Shown here: piece by piece, positions 6,745-43,319 of the stretch
How positions within the stretch are numbered: position 1 is the first letter of the stretch
How the letters are laid out: each line of letters begins with the position of its first letter
NCBI GenBank assembly: GCA_023512475.1
Contig: JAILZL010000013.1
Coordinates: 1-64,000, forward strand
DNA: 64,000 nt
Direction of reading: 5' to 3'
DNA from: Syntrophobacterales bacterium
Lineage (GTDB): Bacteria > Desulfobacterota > Desulfobaccia > Desulfobaccales > 0-14-0-80-60-11
Made by a program: the position numbers and the translations under genes
The notes under the pieces: generated by a model
What the model was told of the DNA's origin: nothing
Seen by the model: the letters and a program-made list of their open reading frames with translations, nothing else
Database searches by the model: none

Positions 6745-7392
6745 ATGCGGAAGCGCACCGGGGTCCTGACGTGGTCTGTCCTGATCCTGACCGGGTGTCT
6801 CATCCTGGGCGGCTGTGGCCGGTCCCGGCTGCCCGTGGCCCCGCCGGCGGCCGCCCTGCCGCCGGCCCCGGAGGCTCCGGCCCCGCCTCTGACGCCGGAG
6901 CAGGCCCTCCTTCAGGAGATTCTGGAAAAACGGGGCTATAACGGCCGGGGCTACCATCCCGTGGTGCTTGTGGTCTCCAAAGAGGCCCGCAAGCTCACCC
7001 TGTACCAAGGCATCCATCCGGTGAAGACCTACCCGGTGGTCCTGGGCGCCAATCCGGTGGCGGACAAGCTCTGCCAGGGGGACAAGTGCACCCCCGAAGG
7101 CGTCTACCGGGTGGTGACCAAATTCGACCACCCCAAGTGGAACAAGTTCATCCTCCTGGATTATCCCAACACCCGCAACTGGCTGAAATTCGCCGAGGCC
7201 AAACGCCAGAGCCGCATTCCCTGGGACGCGGACATCGGCGGGGAGATCGGCATTCACGGCACCGAGGATGATCTCAAGAACCTCCGGGGGGAAAACTGGA
7301 CCCTGGGCTGCGTCTCCCTCCTCAACCGGCATGTGGATGAGATTTACCCCTATGTGAGCTTCGACACCCTGGTGGTGATCAAGCGGCGATAA
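6745..7392 (+). CDS. L,D-transpeptidase (YkuD domain), probable lipoprotein
   Basis: A 215-residue envelope protein. The N-terminus has a hydrophobic segment ending in a lipobox (ILGGC, Cys near 24), then a Pro/Ala linker and a YkuD domain from about residue 73 (VVLVVSKEARKLTLYQG). Catalytic features are IGIHGTEDD and the nucleophile cysteine in WTLGCVSLLNRHVDE. The family makes 3-3 crosslinks in peptidoglycan or attaches proteins to it. The GGAGGAG RBS supports ATG 6745 over the in-frame ATG at 6673. It is convergent with the DegP-like gene. Confidence 0.92.
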   Translation: MRKRTGVLTWSVLILTGCLILGGCGRSRLPVAPPAAALPPAPEAPAPPLTPEQALLQEILEKRGYNGRGYHPVVLVVSKEARKLTLYQGIHPVKTYPVVLGANPVADKLCQGDKCTPEGVYRVVTKFDHPKWNKFILLDYPNTRNWLKFAEAKRQSRIPWDADIGGEIGIHGTEDDLKNLRGENWTLGCVSLLNRHVDEIYPYVSFDTLVVIKRR

Positions 7393-27896: not shown

Positions 27897-29561
<1,665 letters not shown>

Positions 29562-29711
29562 GGGTTTCCCTCGTGTGTGCGGCATGGAGTTTTCAGGAGG
29601 ATCGTCGGGGAGGGCAGCCCCTGCCCTCCACCGCCTTCCCCCATGGGGCGGGGGAAGCCGGGAGAAGGAGGCAGGGCCTGCTGGACCCTGCCCCCCTCCC
29701 GTGAGACCGGC

Positions 29712-31817: not shown

Positions 31818-33647
31818 TCAGATCTCCCCGTCCTGCTCCATCTTGGCCAGCTCTTCGAAGCGGATATCCAGCCCCAGCACGCCGATGATCTCGTCGTTGT
31901 CATCCCGGATGGGGACGCTCACCGTGATGCACAGGGCCCCGGTGAACCGGGAGGTGTAGAAATCGGACACATACACCTTGCCCCGTTTGATGGGCTCGAT
32001 GAACCACGGCCGGTTGGAGAGGTCCTCGTCCAGGGCCATGGTCTCGTATTTGGCCCGGTCCACGATGTGGGTGATGTTGCGGGTGATCTTGCGCCCCTCC
32101 AGGTTGGTGACGTACATGAACTGGATGAAGGGGTTGTTGTCCAGCACCCGCTGCATCACCGGCTCCTGCTGGGCGGGATCCATGGTGCGGATCTCCTCCC
32201 GCTGGGCCAGATCCTCCGCCAGGTGGGCCGCCAGGGTGCGGGCCTTGTCCTTGAGACGGTCGAATTCGCTGACGAAATATTCCGGCAGGTAGCGGCGGGC
32301 CAGATTCTCCATCTCCTCGTTGCTGATGGAGGTGCAGCGCCCGGCCTCGTACCATTCCATGATGCGTTTGTAGATCTTGCCCACCCCGGGATGGGCCTTG
32401 TCCACCTTCTGGTCGCCGGTGAGGCCCAGCCGGGCGTTGATCCAGTGGACGATGCCGGCCTTGCCGCTCTTGTCGGTGATGGTGATGGTGAACGGCCGCT
32501 TCAGGATGCGGGCGGTGTCGAAGGGGTTGTAGATCTCTTCGTTCTTCAGGATGCCGTCCGCATGGATGCCGGCGCTGGTGGCGTTGAAGCTGGCCCCCAC
32601 AAAGGGATAATTGGGCGGGATGCGGTAATGCAGCTCCCGCTCAAAATACCGGGCGATGTCGGTGATCACCGTGGTGTCGATGCCGTCGGTGGTGCCCCTG
32701 AGCGAAATGTACTCGATGATCAGCGCCTCGATGGGGGTGTTGCCGGTGCGCTCCCCGAAGCCCAACAGGGTGCCGTTCACCGCGCCGCAGCCGTACAGCC
32801 AGGCGGTGACCCCGTTGATGAAGACTTTGTGGAAGTCATTGTGGCCGTGCCACTCCAGCAGGTGCCCCGGCACCCCGGCGTCCTCGATCATGGCCCGCAC
32901 CAGCCGGGGGACGCTCCGGGGCAGGGCCGCCCCGGGATAGGGCACCCCGTAGCCCATGGTGTCGCACAGGCGGATCTTGACGTCGATGCCGCTCTCCTCC
33001 CTCAGCTTCATAAGCTCGATGGCCAGGGGCACGCAGAAGCCGTAGATGTCGGCCCGGGTGATGTCCTCGAAGTGGCAGCGGGGGGTGATGCCCAGCTCCA
33101 GGGCCGCCTTGGCGATGGCCAGGTACTCCTCCAGGGCCCGGCGGCGGTTCCAGCCCAGCTTGAGGAAGATGTGGTAGTCGGAGACCGAGGTGAGGATGCC
33201 GGTCTCCTTCAGCCCCATGTCCCGCACCAGAGGCAGGTCGGCGGGATGGGCCCGGATCCAGCCGGTGATCTCCGGATAACGGTAGCCCCGCTCCAAGCAG
33301 CGGGCCACCGCCTCCTTGTCCTTCGCGCTGTAGAGGAAAAATTCACTCTGCCGGATGATGCCCTTGGGCCCCCCCAACCGGTGCAAAAAGTCGAAGATCT
33401 CCACGATCTGGCGCACCGTGTAGGGCGGCCGGGCCTGCTGCCCGTCCCGGAAGGTGGTGTCGGTGATGAGCATCTGCTCCGGGGGTTGGGGCATTACGAA
33501 TTTATAATCGAAATCGATGCGGGCGATCTCGGTGTAGGGAAAGATGTCCCGCATGAGGTTGGGCTCCTCTACATCCACGAGCCGATGCTTCCAGAAGGTG
33601 GTATGCTCGTGGTCCAACAGCCGGCGTTCCGGATTCCAGCGTGCCAT
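31818..33647 (-). CDS. Re-citrate-synthase-like HMGL-family enzyme fused to a C-terminal Cache/PDC-like sensor domain
   Basis: 609 residues. Residues 45-420 form the DRE-TIM metallolyase barrel: ITDTTFRDGQQARPPY, IRQSEFFLYSAKDKEAV, PRCHFEDITRADIYGF, KIRLCDTMGYGVPYPGA, LEWHGHNDFHKV, GERTGNTPIEAL and FNATSAGIHADG. This pattern matches, from memory, Re-citrate synthases of Clostridium kluyveri and sulfate reducers, relatives of homocitrate and isopropylmalate synthases. Residues ~430-605 are extra, with NRPWFIEPIKRGKVYVSDFY, ALCITVSVPIRDDND and IIGVLGLDIRFEELAK, a Cache/PDC-like ligand-sensor fold normally found outside the membrane in chemoreceptors; here no transmembrane helix exists. ATG 33647 has a GAGGAG RBS. 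Lies upstream of the decarboxylase genes. Confidence 0.8.
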   Translation of the reverse strand: MARWNPERRLLDHEHTTFWKHRLVDVEEPNLMRDIFPYTEIARIDFDYKFVMPQPPEQMLITDTTFRDGQQARPPYTVRQIVEIFDFLHRLGGPKGIIRQSEFFLYSAKDKEAVARCLERGYRYPEITGWIRAHPADLPLVRDMGLKETGILTSVSDYHIFLKLGWNRRRALEEYLAIAKAALELGITPRCHFEDITRADIYGFCVPLAIELMKLREESGIDVKIRLCDTMGYGVPYPGAALPRSVPRLVRAMIEDAGVPGHLLEWHGHNDFHKVFINGVTAWLYGCGAVNGTLLGFGERTGNTPIEALIIEYISLRGTTDGIDTTVITDIARYFERELHYRIPPNYPFVGASFNATSAGIHADGILKNEEIYNPFDTARILKRPFTITITDKSGKAGIVHWINARLGLTGDQKVDKAHPGVGKIYKRIMEWYEAGRCTSISNEEMENLARRYLPEYFVSEFDRLKDKARTLAAHLAEDLAQREEIRTMDPAQQEPVMQRVLDNNPFIQFMYVTNLEGRKITRNITHIVDRAKYETMALDEDLSNRPWFIEPIKRGKVYVSDFYTSRFTGALCITVSVPIRDDNDEIIGVLGLDIRFEELAKMEQDGEI

Positions 33648-33779
33648 AGGGCTCCTCGTATATAGGTGCGGTGGGGATTCGGGGTGCCGGTGGCTGCCCC
33701 TGCGGCCGGTGGCGCCCACGCCGTGGGCGGCCGGCCGCCTCTTAGGCAGGACCGGGTCTGCCCCTTTTCCCTTGCGGGT

Positions 33780-36831: not shown

Positions 36832-36862
36832 CACTCCATCCCGACAGGTTTCAAAAAATTAA

Positions 36863-36891
36863 AATAAACCAGGAAAAGGCCCGGCTGTCAA
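36863..36891 (-). promoter_or_regulatory. hisS-aspS promoter
   Basis: Perfect TTGACA (36886-36891), 17-bp spacer, TTTATT -10 (36863-36868), about 30 bp upstream of the hisS start. Confidence 0.75.
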
Positions 36892-36955
36892 GATGAACCC
36901 GGGGAATTTCGCCCCCCGGCCCTGCCCCGGCCGGACTGCCGGGGAGAAACGGGAC

Positions 36956-36984
36956 TTGACAGGGGCGGCGGGCCGTGCTACCTA
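36956..36984 (+). promoter_or_regulatory. promoter of the riboswitch-controlled peptide operon
   Basis: TTGACA (36956-36961), 17-bp spacer, then TACCTA (36979-36984) with an extended TGC element in front (36976-36978). Transcription would begin about 20 bp before the riboswitch P1 stem. The -10 match itself is poor. Confidence 0.55.
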
Positions 36985-37009
36985 GCAGACGACAATTTAC
37001 GGTGGAACG

Positions 37010-37163
37010 CCGGACGGCATCCCGGAACCCGGTGCAAATCCGGGGCGGACCCGCCGCTGTGATCGGGGACGAGGGAGGCACCTCAGGGTCACTGCCGGGG
37101 CTCACCCCGGTGGGAAGGCCGCCTCCCGAGGAGGATCCGAGAGCCAGAAGACCTGCCGTCCGG
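37010..37163 (+). promoter_or_regulatory. cobalamin (B12) riboswitch aptamer
   Basis: P1 is a perfect 10-bp stem: CCGGACGGCA (37010-37019) with TGCCGTCCGG (37154-37163). Between the arms are the class hallmarks in order: GGTGCAAATCC, GCGGACCCGCCGCTGTGA, CACTG, GGGAAGGC, and the B12 box GAGCCAGAAGACCTGCC (37141-37157). The 440-bp gap between hisS and the peptide gene is thus filled by two promoters, this aptamer and a terminator. Confidence 0.96.
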
Positions 37164-37188
37164 GGTCCAGGTTCCCTTGAAGGCAAAG

Positions 37189-37216
37189 GGGGCACCTGAG
37201 TGAGGTGCCCCTTTTT
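37189..37216 (+). terminator. riboswitch expression-platform terminator
   Basis: A 9-bp perfect stem GGGGCACCT (37189-37197) with AGGTGCCCC (37203-37211), 5-base loop, five T residues (37212-37216). It is 25 bp past the aptamer and 56 bp before the peptide gene, so B12 binding most likely promotes transcription termination. Antiterminator pairing was not worked out. Confidence 0.9.
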
Positions 37217-37271
37217 CTTTTGCCGGCCCCGCGCCGCCGGGGTTTATTCCCAACTATAAGGAGGAAGGACC

Positions 37272-37373
37272 ATGCAGAAACCCCAGATCATCCAGATCCG
37301 CTACACCTGCCGGCCCGACGGTAACCAGGTGGGGCTGTCCCATTACCTGATGGCCGAGGCGGCCAAGAAGTAA
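37272..37373 (+). CDS. cbpA: 33-residue precursor peptide of a radical-SAM RiPP-like system (CbpA-like)
   Basis: A very strong RBS (AAGGAGGAAGG) precedes ATG 37272. The peptide begins MQKPQIIQIRYTCRPDGNQ and ends HYLMAEAAKK, with a single Cys13 flanked by Tyr11, Arg14 and Pro15. It is followed after one base by the ATG of the maturase gene. Small size, strong translation and tight linkage to a radical SAM/SPASM enzyme are the marks of a modified-peptide precursor. From memory, the NCBI/TIGRFAM names CbpA and CbpB are used for a cobalamin-riboswitch-associated peptide/maturase pair; the match of names is recalled, not searched. Modified residue and final function are unknown. Confidence 0.75.
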   Translation: MQKPQIIQIRYTCRPDGNQVGLSHYLMAEAAKK

Positions 37374-37374
37374 G

Positions 37375-38772
37375 ATGCAGAACCGCCATCTCCTGACGGG
37401 GGCGGCCCTCGGGGTCCAGGCCAATGCGGGGGCCGCCCCCCACTTCCATCTGCTGGCCACGGCCCACCCAAAGTACGTGGCCCTCATCGAGCCGGACACC
37501 GCCTTTTGGGTGCTGGTGCGCCGGGAGGAGGCCCTGGACCTCCTTTTGGGCCCGGAGCTGCCCCAGGCCTTTGCCGCCAAGGAGGCGGAGCTGGCCCGGG
37601 ATCTGACCACGGTGCGCTTCGGGCTGCTGCCCTCGGCGGTCTATTTCAATCCCACGGAACGCTGCAACCTCAACTGCAGCTACTGTTACCTGCCCCGGGA
37701 GATGCGCCAGGCCGGCCGGCAGATGACCCCGGCCCAGCTGCTTCGGGCCCTGGAGCTCCTGGAGGAGTATTTCCGGGGTGTCCTCCCGGAGGGGGCCCGC
37801 CCGCAGCTCGTCTTTCACGGCAGCGAGCCCCTGCTGGCCCGGGAGGCGGTCTTCGCCGGCATGGAGCGTTTTGCCGGGCGCTTCCGCTTCGGAGTGCAGA
37901 CCAACGCCACCCTCCTGGACCGGGAGGCCCGGGAATTTCTGGTCTCCCAGGGCGCGGGGATCGGGTTGTCCCTGGACGGTCCCACCGCCGCCATCGCCGA
38001 CCGCACCCGCAAGACCTGGGGCGGGGAGGGGGTTTTCGCCCGGACGGTCACGGTGCTGGAGGAGCTGGCCGACTACCCGGGGCTGAACGTCATCGTCACC
38101 GTCACCCGGGAAAATGTGGGCGCCCTCCCGGACCTGGTGGAGTTCCTCCACGCCCGGGGGGTGAAAAACGTCCTCCTCAACCCGGTGCGGGGCACCCAGG
38201 CGGGCGGCCGGGAGCTTCTGCCGGAAGAGGCCGCCCTGGGCCATCACTTCTTCGCCGCCCTCGAACGGGCCTACGACCTCCTGCAGGCCAGCGGCCACAA
38301 GCTGGTGGTGGGCAACTTCGCCAACCTGCTCCTGGGCCTGGTGGCCCCGGGGGCCCGGCGCCTGATGTGCGATATCTCCCCCTGCGGCGGCGGCCGCTGC
38401 TTCTTTGCGGTGGGGGCGGCCGGCGAGGTCACCCCCTGCAGCGAATTCCTGGGCCTCCCGGAATTCCACGGCGGCAACCTCTTTGAGGCGCCCCTGGCGG
38501 AGATCCTGGCCACCCCGCCCTTCCGCCAGGTCACCGGGCGGCGGGTGGAGGACATTCACCCCTGCCGCCGCTGCGCGGTGCGCCACTTCTGCGGCGCCCC
38601 CTGCCCGGCGGAGATCCACGCCATGACCGGCACCCTGCACGGCCCGGCGGCGCTGTGCGACTTTTACGCCGCCCAGGTCCGCTTCGCCCTGGGGGTCATC
38701 GCCGCCGGCCGCCTGGACGCCTACCTGTGGGATCACTGGCAGGAAAATCTGGAGGAAATCAGGGTCATGTGA
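37375..38772 (+). CDS. cbpB: peptide-modifying radical SAM/SPASM enzyme (CbpB-like)
   Basis: 465 residues. An N-terminal ~85-residue region may recognise the peptide. The radical SAM core has CNLNCSYCYLP (Cys97, Cys101, Cys104 bind the SAM [4Fe-4S] cluster), LVFHGSEPLL and VQTNATLLD. The C-terminal SPASM region supplies cysteines for auxiliary clusters: CDISPCGGGRCFF, GEVTPCSEF, CRRCAVRHFCGAPCPAE and a final Cys in ALCDFY. Such enzymes install thioethers, C-C crosslinks or other modifications on a small peptide. There is no RBS of its own, so translation is coupled to the peptide gene one base upstream. Under B12 riboswitch control. Confidence 0.9.
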   Translation: MQNRHLLTGAALGVQANAGAAPHFHLLATAHPKYVALIEPDTAFWVLVRREEALDLLLGPELPQAFAAKEAELARDLTTVRFGLLPSAVYFNPTERCNLNCSYCYLPREMRQAGRQMTPAQLLRALELLEEYFRGVLPEGARPQLVFHGSEPLLAREAVFAGMERFAGRFRFGVQTNATLLDREAREFLVSQGAGIGLSLDGPTAAIADRTRKTWGGEGVFARTVTVLEELADYPGLNVIVTVTRENVGALPDLVEFLHARGVKNVLLNPVRGTQAGGRELLPEEAALGHHFFAALERAYDLLQASGHKLVVGNFANLLLGLVAPGARRLMCDISPCGGGRCFFAVGAAGEVTPCSEFLGLPEFHGGNLFEAPLAEILATPPFRQVTGRRVEDIHPCRRCAVRHFCGAPCPAEIHAMTGTLHGPAALCDFYAAQVRFALGVIAAGRLDAYLWDHWQENLEEIRVM

Positions 38773-38790
38773 CCCCGAAAGGAAAGCCGC

Positions 38791-38831
38791 GGGGAGGGCC
38801 GGGGCCGAAGCCCTGCCCTCCCCTTGGTTTT
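38791..38831 (+). terminator. probable terminator of the peptide operon
   Basis: GGGGAGGGC (38791-38799) pairs with GCCCTCCCC (38815-38823); a loose T-run (TTGGTTTT, 38824-38831) follows. The remainder of the gap to the convergent prs gene contains nothing recognisable. Confidence 0.55.
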
Positions 38832-38928
38832 AATGGGTGAGGGCGAGTGGAAGGAGAAGAGAAGGCCGGGGCCTCCGAGCTCCGCCCCTCTCCCGGCCGG
38901 TGCCGCACCTGCCGGCGGCGTTGCCCGG

Positions 38929-39882
38929 CTAAAAATGAATCTCAAACAGGGAGCTGATGGATTCTTCCCGGTGGATGTTGAGGATGGCCCGGGCGAAGGT
39001 GCGGGCCACGCTCAACTGCACGATTTTGGGGCACTTCTGGGCGGCGTCGGAGAGGCGGATGGTGTCGGTCACCACCAGGTTTTTCAGGGCGGACTCGGAG
39101 ATGCGGGAGACGGCCGGCCCCGAGAGCACCGCGTGGGTGCAGCAGGCATTGACGCTTAGGGCCCCGTGACCCAGGATGACCTTGGCCGCCTCGGCCAGGG
39201 TGCCGCCGGTGTCCACGATGTCGTCCATGATGACCACATCCTTCCCCAGGACATCACCGATGAGGTGCATGGCCTTGGCCTTGCCGGGCGCGTCCCGGCG
39301 TTTGTCAATGAGCCCCAGGGAGGCGCCCAGGCGCTTGGCGTAGGCCCGGGCCCGGGCCACCCCGCCGGCATCCGGGGAGACGATGACCAGATCATTTTTG
39401 AAGTTTTCGTGTATGTACGGAATCATCACCGGAGAGCCGTAGAGGTTGTCCACCGGGATGTCGAAAAAGCCCTGGATCTGGCCCACGTGCAGGTCCATGG
39501 TGAGGATGCGGTCGGCCCCGGCGGTGGTGAGGAGGTCGGCCACCAGCTTGGCGGAGATGGGCACCCGGGGCGCCACCTTGCGGTCCTGGCGGGCATAGCC
39601 GAAATACGGGATCACCGCGGTGATGCGCCGGGCCGAGGCCCGCTTCACCGCGTCGATCATGATGAGCAGCTCCATGAGGTGCTGGTTCACCGGCGGGCTG
39701 GTAGGCTGGATGAGAAAGACATCCCGGCCCCGGACGTTTTCGCCGATCTCCACCCGGATTTCGCCGTCGCTGAAGGTGGAGACCAGGGCCTGCCCCAGGG
39801 TGATCCCCAGTTCCTCGCAGATCTTCCGGGCCAGCTCGGGGTTGGCGTTGCCGGTGAAGACGCGCAGGTCATTATTGAGCAT
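38929..39882 (-). CDS. prs: ribose-phosphate pyrophosphokinase
   Basis: 317 residues of a class I PRPP synthase: [75 protein letters not shown] and the PRPP loop [13 protein letters not shown] are intact. Makes PRPP from ribose-5-phosphate and ATP for nucleotide, His and Trp synthesis. ATG 39882 follows GGGAAG. It lies 44 bp downstream of sfsA on the same strand. Confidence 0.97.
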
Positions 39883-41475: not shown

Positions 41476-42408
41476 TCAGTCCGGTCCTTCATAAAAGGCG
41501 GCCAGGATCTCCCGGCCGCCGGCGGCCAGGAGGCGTTCCGCCAGGGCCGCGCCCAGGGCGGCGGCGTCCCCGGCATCCCCTATAAGCCGGTCCTGCACCA
41601 CCTGCCGGCCGTCGGCGTCGCTGATGAGGGCGGTGAGGCTGAGGCGGCCGTCTGTGAGCTCCCCCAGGGCCGCCACCGGCACCAGACAGCCCCCCTCCAG
41701 CCGGGCCAGAAAGGCCCGTTCCGCCGTGACCGCCACCCGGGTGGGGTAATGATCCAGGGGCGCCAGCAGCTGGAGCAGCTCCCGATCCTCGGCTCTCACC
41801 TCCAGAGCCAGGGCCCCCTGACCGATGGCGGGCAGCATCTCCTGGGGCCCGAGATAGCGCCGGGGCAGATGCCCCAGCCCCAGGCGCTTGAGCCCCGCGG
41901 CCGCCAGGATGATGGCATCCAGGTTCTCCGTGGCGAGCTTGCGCAGGCGGGTGTCCACATTGCCCCGCAGGGGCACCACCTCCAGATCGGGGCGCTGGCG
42001 CAGCACCTGCACCCGGCGCCTCAGGCTGCCGGTGCCCACCCGCCCTCCGGGGGGGATGTCCGCCAGGGACTCCCAGCGGTGGGAGAGGAAGGCGTCCCGC
42101 CAGTCCTCCCGGGGCGGGAAGGCCCCCAGGACACACCCCGGCGGGAGCTCCGCGGGCATGTCCTTCAGGCTGTGCACCGCCAGGTCCACCTCCCCCCGGA
42201 GCAGGGCCTCCTCGATCTCCTTGATGAAGAGGCCCTTGCCGCCCAGGCGGGCCAGGGGCACGTCGGTGATCCTGTCCCCGCTGGTCTTGATCACCACCAG
42301 CTCGGTGGCCACCTCCGGCTGAACGGTCCGCAGCTGGGCCTCCACCCAGCGGCTCTGGGTGAGGGCCAGCACACTCCCCCGGGTGCCGATCCTGAGGGTC
42401 CGGGGCAC
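41476..42408 (-). CDS. hemC: porphobilinogen deaminase (hydroxymethylbilane synthase)
   Basis: 310 residues from GTG 42408, directly after a GAGGAG RBS. Motifs: RIGTRGSVLALTQSRWV, VHSLKDMPAELP, GTGSLRRRVQVL, LRGNVDTRLRKL, LPAIGQGALALE and the cofactor cysteine in LEGGCLVPVAAL that anchors dipyrromethane. Builds the linear tetrapyrrole for heme, siroheme and cobalamin. Eight bp after the small zinc-ribbon gene. Confidence 0.97.
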   Translation of the reverse strand: MPRTLRIGTRGSVLALTQSRWVEAQLRTVQPEVATELVVIKTSGDRITDVPLARLGGKGLFIKEIEEALLRGEVDLAVHSLKDMPAELPPGCVLGAFPPREDWRDAFLSHRWESLADIPPGGRVGTGSLRRRVQVLRQRPDLEVVPLRGNVDTRLRKLATENLDAIILAAAGLKRLGLGHLPRRYLGPQEMLPAIGQGALALEVRAEDRELLQLLAPLDHYPTRVAVTAERAFLARLEGGCLVPVAALGELTDGRLSLTALISDADGRQVVQDRLIGDAGDAAALGAALAERLLAAGGREILAAFYEGPD

Positions 42409-42415
42409 GCGCTCC

Positions 42416-42643
42416 TCAGCCGCAGGTGCTGCAGGAGGTGGCGGAGCAGCCGGAGCAGGAGCTCTTGCTGCCGGAAGAGGGGGTGGACATGAAGTCGTGG
42501 TAGTCGGTCTTGAAGGCGCAGGCGCTCATGAGCTTGGCCACCGGGCCGCCGCAGGCCGGGCAGGTGACCTCGGGGTCGCCGCTGAACACCAGCTTTTCAA
42601 AATCCTGGTTGCACTTGTCACAATGAAACTCGAAAATGGGCAT
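42416..42643 (-). CDS. FmdB-type zinc-ribbon small protein
   Basis: 75 residues with MPIFEFHCDKCNQDFEKL and VTCPACGGPVAKLM giving the CxxC...CxxC zinc ribbon of FmdB/CxxC-CxxC-SSSS proteins, and a Ser/Cys-rich tail (CSGCSATSCSTC). Regulatory role proposed in the family but not established. RBS AGAGGAAA. Sits between tspO and hemC in one operon. Confidence 0.85.
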   Translation of the reverse strand: MPIFEFHCDKCNQDFEKLVFSGDPEVTCPACGGPVAKLMSACAFKTDYHDFMSTPSSGSKSSCSGCSATSCSTCG

Positions 42644-42658
42644 TTTTCCTCTCCAGAA

Positions 42659-43138
42659 TCAACTGTTCAGGCGCCACAGGGCGTAATTGAGGGCGCCGGC
42701 AAAGCTCAGCCAGCCCAGATAGGGCAGGAGCAGCCCGCCGGCCAGGGGCTCATGGCGCCAGAAGGCCACCAGGGTGGCAGCGGCCGTCAGCCACAGGACC
42801 ATCAGGTCCGCCAGGGCCCAGCCGGGGGCCTTCAGCCCGAAAAAGATCCAGGACCACAGGGCATTGAACAGAAGCTGCACCAAAAACAGCCCCAACGCCC
42901 CGCCGGCCCCGCCGAAGCCGTGACGCCGCCACACCCGCCAGGCGGCCAGCGCCATCAGCAGGTAAAGGATGGACCACACCGGGCCGAAGAGCCAGTCCGG
43001 TGGGGTCCAGGCGGGCTTGGCCAATCCGGCGTACCACTCCCCCGGGGGGAACCAGGCCCCGAAGGCCGCGGCGCCGAAGCACAGGGCCACCCAGGCCGCC
43101 AGCCCGGCCAGGTCCGTCAGTTTGGGGGTTTGCCCCAT
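42659..43138 (-). CDS. tspO: TspO/MBR family tryptophan-rich sensory protein
   Basis: 159 residues, five transmembrane helices, with the family motifs WYAGLAKPAWTPPDWLFGPVW (quoted to conserved W/P residues), NALWSWIFFG and PYLGWLSFAGALNYALWRLN. TspO proteins bind porphyrins and cholesterol-like ligands. The adjoining hemC suggests a tetrapyrrole link. ATG 43138 has GGGGAGG upstream; the longer frame to 43312 is not supported. Confidence 0.92.
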   Translation of the reverse strand: MGQTPKLTDLAGLAAWVALCFGAAAFGAWFPPGEWYAGLAKPAWTPPDWLFGPVWSILYLLMALAAWRVWRRHGFGGAGGALGLFLVQLLFNALWSWIFFGLKAPGWALADLMVLWLTAAATLVAFWRHEPLAGGLLLPYLGWLSFAGALNYALWRLNS

Positions 43139-43267
43139 CCTCCCGGCCTCCCCAGAGAAGCTCTCCCGGCGCTTTTCCGGGGCCGGCGAAGACCGGTATT
43201 CCCCGGGCTTAGGATCCCCGGGGAAAGGGCCAGGGCTCTCTGCCCCAGCCCCTTCCCCGCTCCCTTC

Positions 43268-43273
43268 ATTATA
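43268..43273 (-). promoter_or_regulatory. perfect TATAAT -10 upstream of tspO
   Basis: A perfect TATAAT lies on the minus strand 130 bp upstream of the tspO start, just past the stop of the cyclophilin-like gene. The -35 region (around 43291) is poor. It could start a tspO-fmdB-hemC transcript. Confidence 0.45.
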
Positions 43274-43319
43274 ATCACTTTTTCCGGTTCTGCATCGCCC
43301 CGGCTGCCTCAAGGGCGCC

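Follow-up and report, generated by a model that had tools for sequence, protein, structure and literature searches.

SPASM maturases make peptide-derived cofactors such as PQQ and mycofactocin, and the substrate of one radical SAM/SPASM enzyme, the thioether-forming SCIFF maturase CteB, contains several Cys residues. A further pair, the precursor peptide CbpA (NCBIfam TIGR04164) and the maturase CbpB (TIGR04163), has already been named by NCBI. Literature searches, with most subscription journals outside their coverage, returned no match for TIGR04163, TIGR04164 or the CbpA/CbpB peptide names, and nothing on a B12 riboswitch combined with a RiPP; the words CbpA and CbpB were found with other meanings only. 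Cobalt and B12 uptake genes controlled by cobalamin riboswitches share both their regulatory element and their neighbours with cbpA/cbpB; in contrast to these genes, the product at cbpA/cbpB is a predicted modified peptide rather than a transporter or pathway enzyme. What is added here to the named pair is a divergent variant of the peptide, a conserved core, strict pairing of the two genes, and a constraint on function.

The window (the whole 64,000-nucleotide stretch of DNA that was analysed) contains the arrangement described in the original prediction: a 33-codon gene (37272-37373, + strand) preceded by the ribosome-binding site AAGGAGGAA (37257-37265, + strand, identified from the sequence 5' of the ORF), with a radical SAM gene (37375-38772, + strand) beginning one base past its stop codon. 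The enzyme, 465 amino acids in length with Pfam Radical_SAM and SPASM matches, scores 623.2 bits against TIGR04163, far above the curated cut-off of 375, and this match identifies it as CbpB. The C97-x3-C101-x2-C104 motif of its radical SAM domain (PF04055; 37648-38148, + strand) and Cys 337, 355, 397, 400, 406, 410 and 428 of its SPASM region (PF13186; 38383-38658, + strand) are invariant across 78 sequences.

In an AF2 model of CbpB (pLDDT 90.6), residues 12-86 (37408-37632, + strand) form an N-terminal domain of three strands followed by two helices. A fold search with this domain alone gave no significant match; a peptide-binding, RRE-like function is plausible from the model. CteB (5WGG/5WHY) is the closest solved structure to the whole model (VIA-align Z 34, rmsd 3.1, 374 residues, with about 20% of the structurally aligned residues identical), with the alignment starting at residue 22; over a shorter core, ChlB and anSME are also among the closest. 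Both CteB and CbpB combine radical SAM and SPASM domains with an N-terminal domain, and the two are matched by sequence profile at E 3e-36. Unlike the CteB substrate, CbpA has one Cys. The best score of the window enzyme against any other NCBIfam family is to the PapB ranthipeptide maturase (NF047865), at 117 bits against a family cut-off of 340, and CbpA peptides do not conserve the CX3D motif found in substrates of PapB.

The product of the small gene, MQKPQIIQIRYTCRPDGNQVGLSHYLMAEAAKK, has a single Cys and no obvious signal sequence. It scores 27 bits (E 2.2e-6) against TIGR04164, below the cut-off of 35, and agrees with the model at 17 of 25 positions; the names CbpA and CbpB, given in the original prediction, are supported, with the enzyme above its family cut-off (623 against 375) and the peptide below its own. 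Compared with common CbpA, the loop from Cys to Gly-Leu is 7 residues rather than 5 and the tail is different. As a short ORF adjoining CbpB with the conserved Cys and GL[STA]H[YF] core, the window peptide is classified from its sequence as a divergent relative of CbpA. A profile built from relatives recovered it at E 6.9e-9 in a whole-genome search. Alignment of relatives delimits a conserved core, IQIRYTCRPDGNQVGLSHYLMAE (37290-37358, + strand), within which lie the invariant Cys13 (37308-37310) and GLSHY (37332-37346). Between this core and that of a same-genus relative there are four synonymous and no non-synonymous changes in 69 nucleotides.

Relatives were drawn from a phylum sample, in which 36 of 395 genomes exceed the CbpB cut-off, and from named genomes (80 loci). 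A short ORF with the pattern C-x(5-7)-G-L-[STA]-H-[YF] lies beside CbpB in 107 of the 108 loci with enough upstream sequence, three further loci that are ended by a contig edge being outside this count. The frame at 37272-37373 is therefore conserved in relatives that keep the enzyme, a point on which the original prediction had been staked beforehand. Cys, Gly, Leu and His are invariant among these peptides, although Gly was required by the search pattern, which permitted several residues at the positions that follow. At the Ser position of the core, four loci have Ala (two of the four records possibly representing one genome) and others have Thr, so Ser is not a required target; at the Tyr position, 15 of 92 peptides have Phe. 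The core profile finds exactly one strong CbpA match in each of 34 CbpB-positive genomes and none in 22 CbpB-negative genomes. CbpA is a real peptide that is obligately paired with CbpB.

The sole CbpB without a CbpA neighbour (L054) has its CbpA on another contig. This detached copy, in a Thermodesulfobacteriaceae genome with no riboswitch match, immediately follows another radical SAM gene (L125, 5791-6987 and about 7110-7230). Two further observations concern the relatives. The Nitrospirota and Omnitrophota peptides (L100-L114) form a subtype that mostly ends in GL[ST]HFVMYGD and mostly lies within cobalamin operons, without its own riboswitch. In a Chloroflexi assembly, the CbpB frame has one in-frame stop codon (L071, 8536-9888).

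Upstream of the pair, cmscan identifies a cobalamin riboswitch aptamer (RF00174; 36983-37174, + strand) at 73.7 bits and E 2.9e-16, above the gathering score of 31.5 bits; it is the only cobalamin aptamer found in the window. In the predicted fold (z -2.75), 37010-37019 pairs with 37154-37163 to form its 10 bp P1, and the outer stem is better placed there than in Rfam's own alignment. Between the aptamer and the peptide gene lies an intrinsic terminator (37185-37215, + strand) with a 13-pair stem followed by a T run. A stem-loop occupies the same position in ten relatives that belong to the same order or family, with a T run in nine, and in most of the ten the stem has changed in sequence with its pairing kept, which supports an off-switch that acts by termination. 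Together, the aptamer and terminator are predicted to form a cobalamin-responsive off-switch of cbpA/cbpB. No antiterminator candidate of at least 7 bases against the 3' arm of the terminator was found in the window. The original prediction thus holds for the aptamer with its 10 bp P1, the terminator, and the overall arrangement of a riboswitch-controlled peptide with a dedicated SPASM maturase. The promoter is a candidate placed by eye alone: a consensus scan of 36850-38950 revealed no sigma-70 match. A loose regular expression for the B12 box was discarded in favour of the covariance-model results, since its 129 matches in 1.6 Mb were too many by chance.

The association with B12 extends to the relatives, as had been proposed for a genome survey. 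For 34 of 50 loci in the named genomes, the covariance model places a riboswitch directly 5' of the pair, within about 700 bases of CbpB, where the chance expectation at about four riboswitches per genome is roughly one in a thousand; of the 16 loci without one, 11 are inside cobalamin operons. Of 20 loci taken mostly from the phylum sample, 18 likewise have a riboswitch, and so do 11 of the 19 loci that were scanned directly and partly overlap the 50. When neighbours of the named loci were clustered (setting aside some apparent clusters that are antisense shadows of CbpB), the recurring families were mostly cobalamin genes: CbiA, CbiB, CbiD, CbiG/H, CbiL, CbiM, CbiQ, CobA, CobD/Q, CobS, CobT, CobU, CobC, DUF71, BtuC/D-like and TonB. 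Among the genes around CbpB, no family of exporters or proteases is recurrent. Genes directly 3' of the pair include CbiX, CbiM, NicO, BluB, CbiD, CobT, CobS, CobA and DUF71, the last of which was earlier predicted to have a role in B12 salvage (PMC3541065). In 42 of 80 named-genome loci, no recognised cobalamin gene is present in the surrounding DNA examined, and the link to B12 at these loci is the riboswitch alone. The cbpA/cbpB pair is an old and widespread companion of B12-making and B12-salvaging genes. In a genome of the same family as the window, a chelatase of the CbiK type, possibly with a signal segment at its N-terminus (L126, 757-1791, - strand), and, by eye, an apparent FecCD-like permease lie 3' of cbpB.

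The explanation that we place first, tentatively, is that the peptide is a cobalamin-switched, RiPP-type precursor that is modified by CbpB and that it serves within the cell as a ligand or chaperone, either of corrinoids or of the cobalt they contain. Judging from the anatomy of the locus, binding of a corrinoid to the aptamer would allow the terminator to form, turning cbpA and cbpB off, while scarcity of corrinoid would lead to their joint transcription. The CteB-like CbpB would then modify the part of CbpA that spans the invariant Cys and the Gly-Leu-x-His-[Tyr/Phe] motif, also invariant; a bond from the Cys sulfur to carbon would be the most likely product. The mature peptide would most likely remain intracellular as a small ligand or chaperone, and it is plausible, by argument only, that Cys, His and the aromatic residue form a set that binds cobalt or corrinoid. 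Gene neighbourhoods and gene content would place this role in the part of cobamide metabolism that is common to de novo makers and salvagers. A role as a small cofactor or signal would fit almost as well. The pathways of cobamide assembly and uptake are considered nearly complete; if the explanation is true, a B12-switched, conserved, modified peptide found in several phyla and tied to both routes would be a missing component of them. CbpA may then be the first ribosomally made, radical-modified peptide to be devoted to cobamide metabolism, an intracellular corrinoid or cobalt ligand of makers and salvagers in many phyla, a proposal that we consider possible but far from secure.

The alternative that survives best, although it is fairly unlikely, is a Co(II) chaperone or carrier that feeds the chelatase in corrin-ring synthesis only. 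Its neighbours speak for it: CbiX is immediately 3' of the pair in four loci (L009, L039, L088 and L103), CbiM in L063 and NicO in L073, CbiMNQO lies just 5' of the pair in Nitrospirota loci, and a CbiK match is about 1.5 kb 3' in G336. Gene content is also favourable, as CbiD, a marker of de novo synthesis, is present in all 34 well-assembled CbpB-positive genomes of the phylum sample versus 20 of 38 hand-picked CbpB-negative genomes (Fisher 9e-7, counting genomes as independent and without correction for kinship), a difference in favour of a part in synthesis or in the supply of cobalt. CbiK, CbiM and CbiX were rejected as discriminators: their presence across 54 genomes did not separate CbpB-positive from CbpB-negative genomes. 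Against a task in ring synthesis only, 14 of 55 other CbpB-positive assemblies, from many phyla, lack ring genes. Ten of these come from 50 assemblies tested for CobJ/CbiH, CbiC and CbiL; for the remaining four the absence covers CbiC and CbiL. CobS is above the cut-off in 10 of the 14 and just below it in an eleventh, and in seven (L046, L058, L064, L072, L100, L104 and L106) genes for salvage and uptake surround or adjoin the pair. The 14 are metagenome-assembled genomes of uncertain completeness, and each single absence is weak; a coherent loss of ring genes with retention of salvage genes in several lineages is hard to attribute to gaps alone, making it unlikely that cobalt insertion is the only task. 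Corrinoid handling common to both routes fits better than cobalt insertion alone.

A peptide-derived redox or group-transfer cofactor, made in the manner of PQQ or mycofactocin and serving one step of cobamide assembly, is unlikely. The pair does sit among biosynthesis enzymes, and such cofactors are known products of SPASM maturases, but no peptidase recurs in the neighbourhoods, and the replacement of Tyr by Phe noted above makes a tyrosine quinone unlikely.

The original prediction had suggested a scavenger, and a secreted corrinoid or cobalt scavenger re-imported via TonB and BtuCDF is improbable. What stands of this idea is that expression is expected under B12 scarcity and that in some salvager-like assemblies (L046, L058, L064, L072 and L106) genes for a TonB receptor and BtuCDF-like proteins are found close to the pair. 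It does not agree with the presence of CbiD in every well-assembled carrier, the peptide's want of an obvious signal sequence, the lack of a recurring exporter or protease family, or the many monocistronic copies with no uptake gene nearby. That the ORF is a mere leader with a regulatory role, or arose by chance in the tail of the riboswitch, as its shortness and position right after the riboswitch might suggest, is highly improbable given a core that is invariant across many phyla, synonymous-only change relative to the same-genus relative, and a presence strictly tied to CbpB, even where detached in one genome.

Elsewhere in the window, the methylmalonyl-CoA mutase of the original prediction was found at 27897-29585. 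Other tetrapyrrole genes are close to cbpB: porphobilinogen deaminase (HemC) and a TspO/MBR family protein (41476-43312, - strand) lie 2.7-4.5 kb from it. An ORF at 31818-33719 (- strand), adjoining a biotin carrier protein gene, encodes an HMGL-like carboxyltransferase domain and, C-terminal to it, a Cache/PDC sensor domain, which is an unusual pairing.
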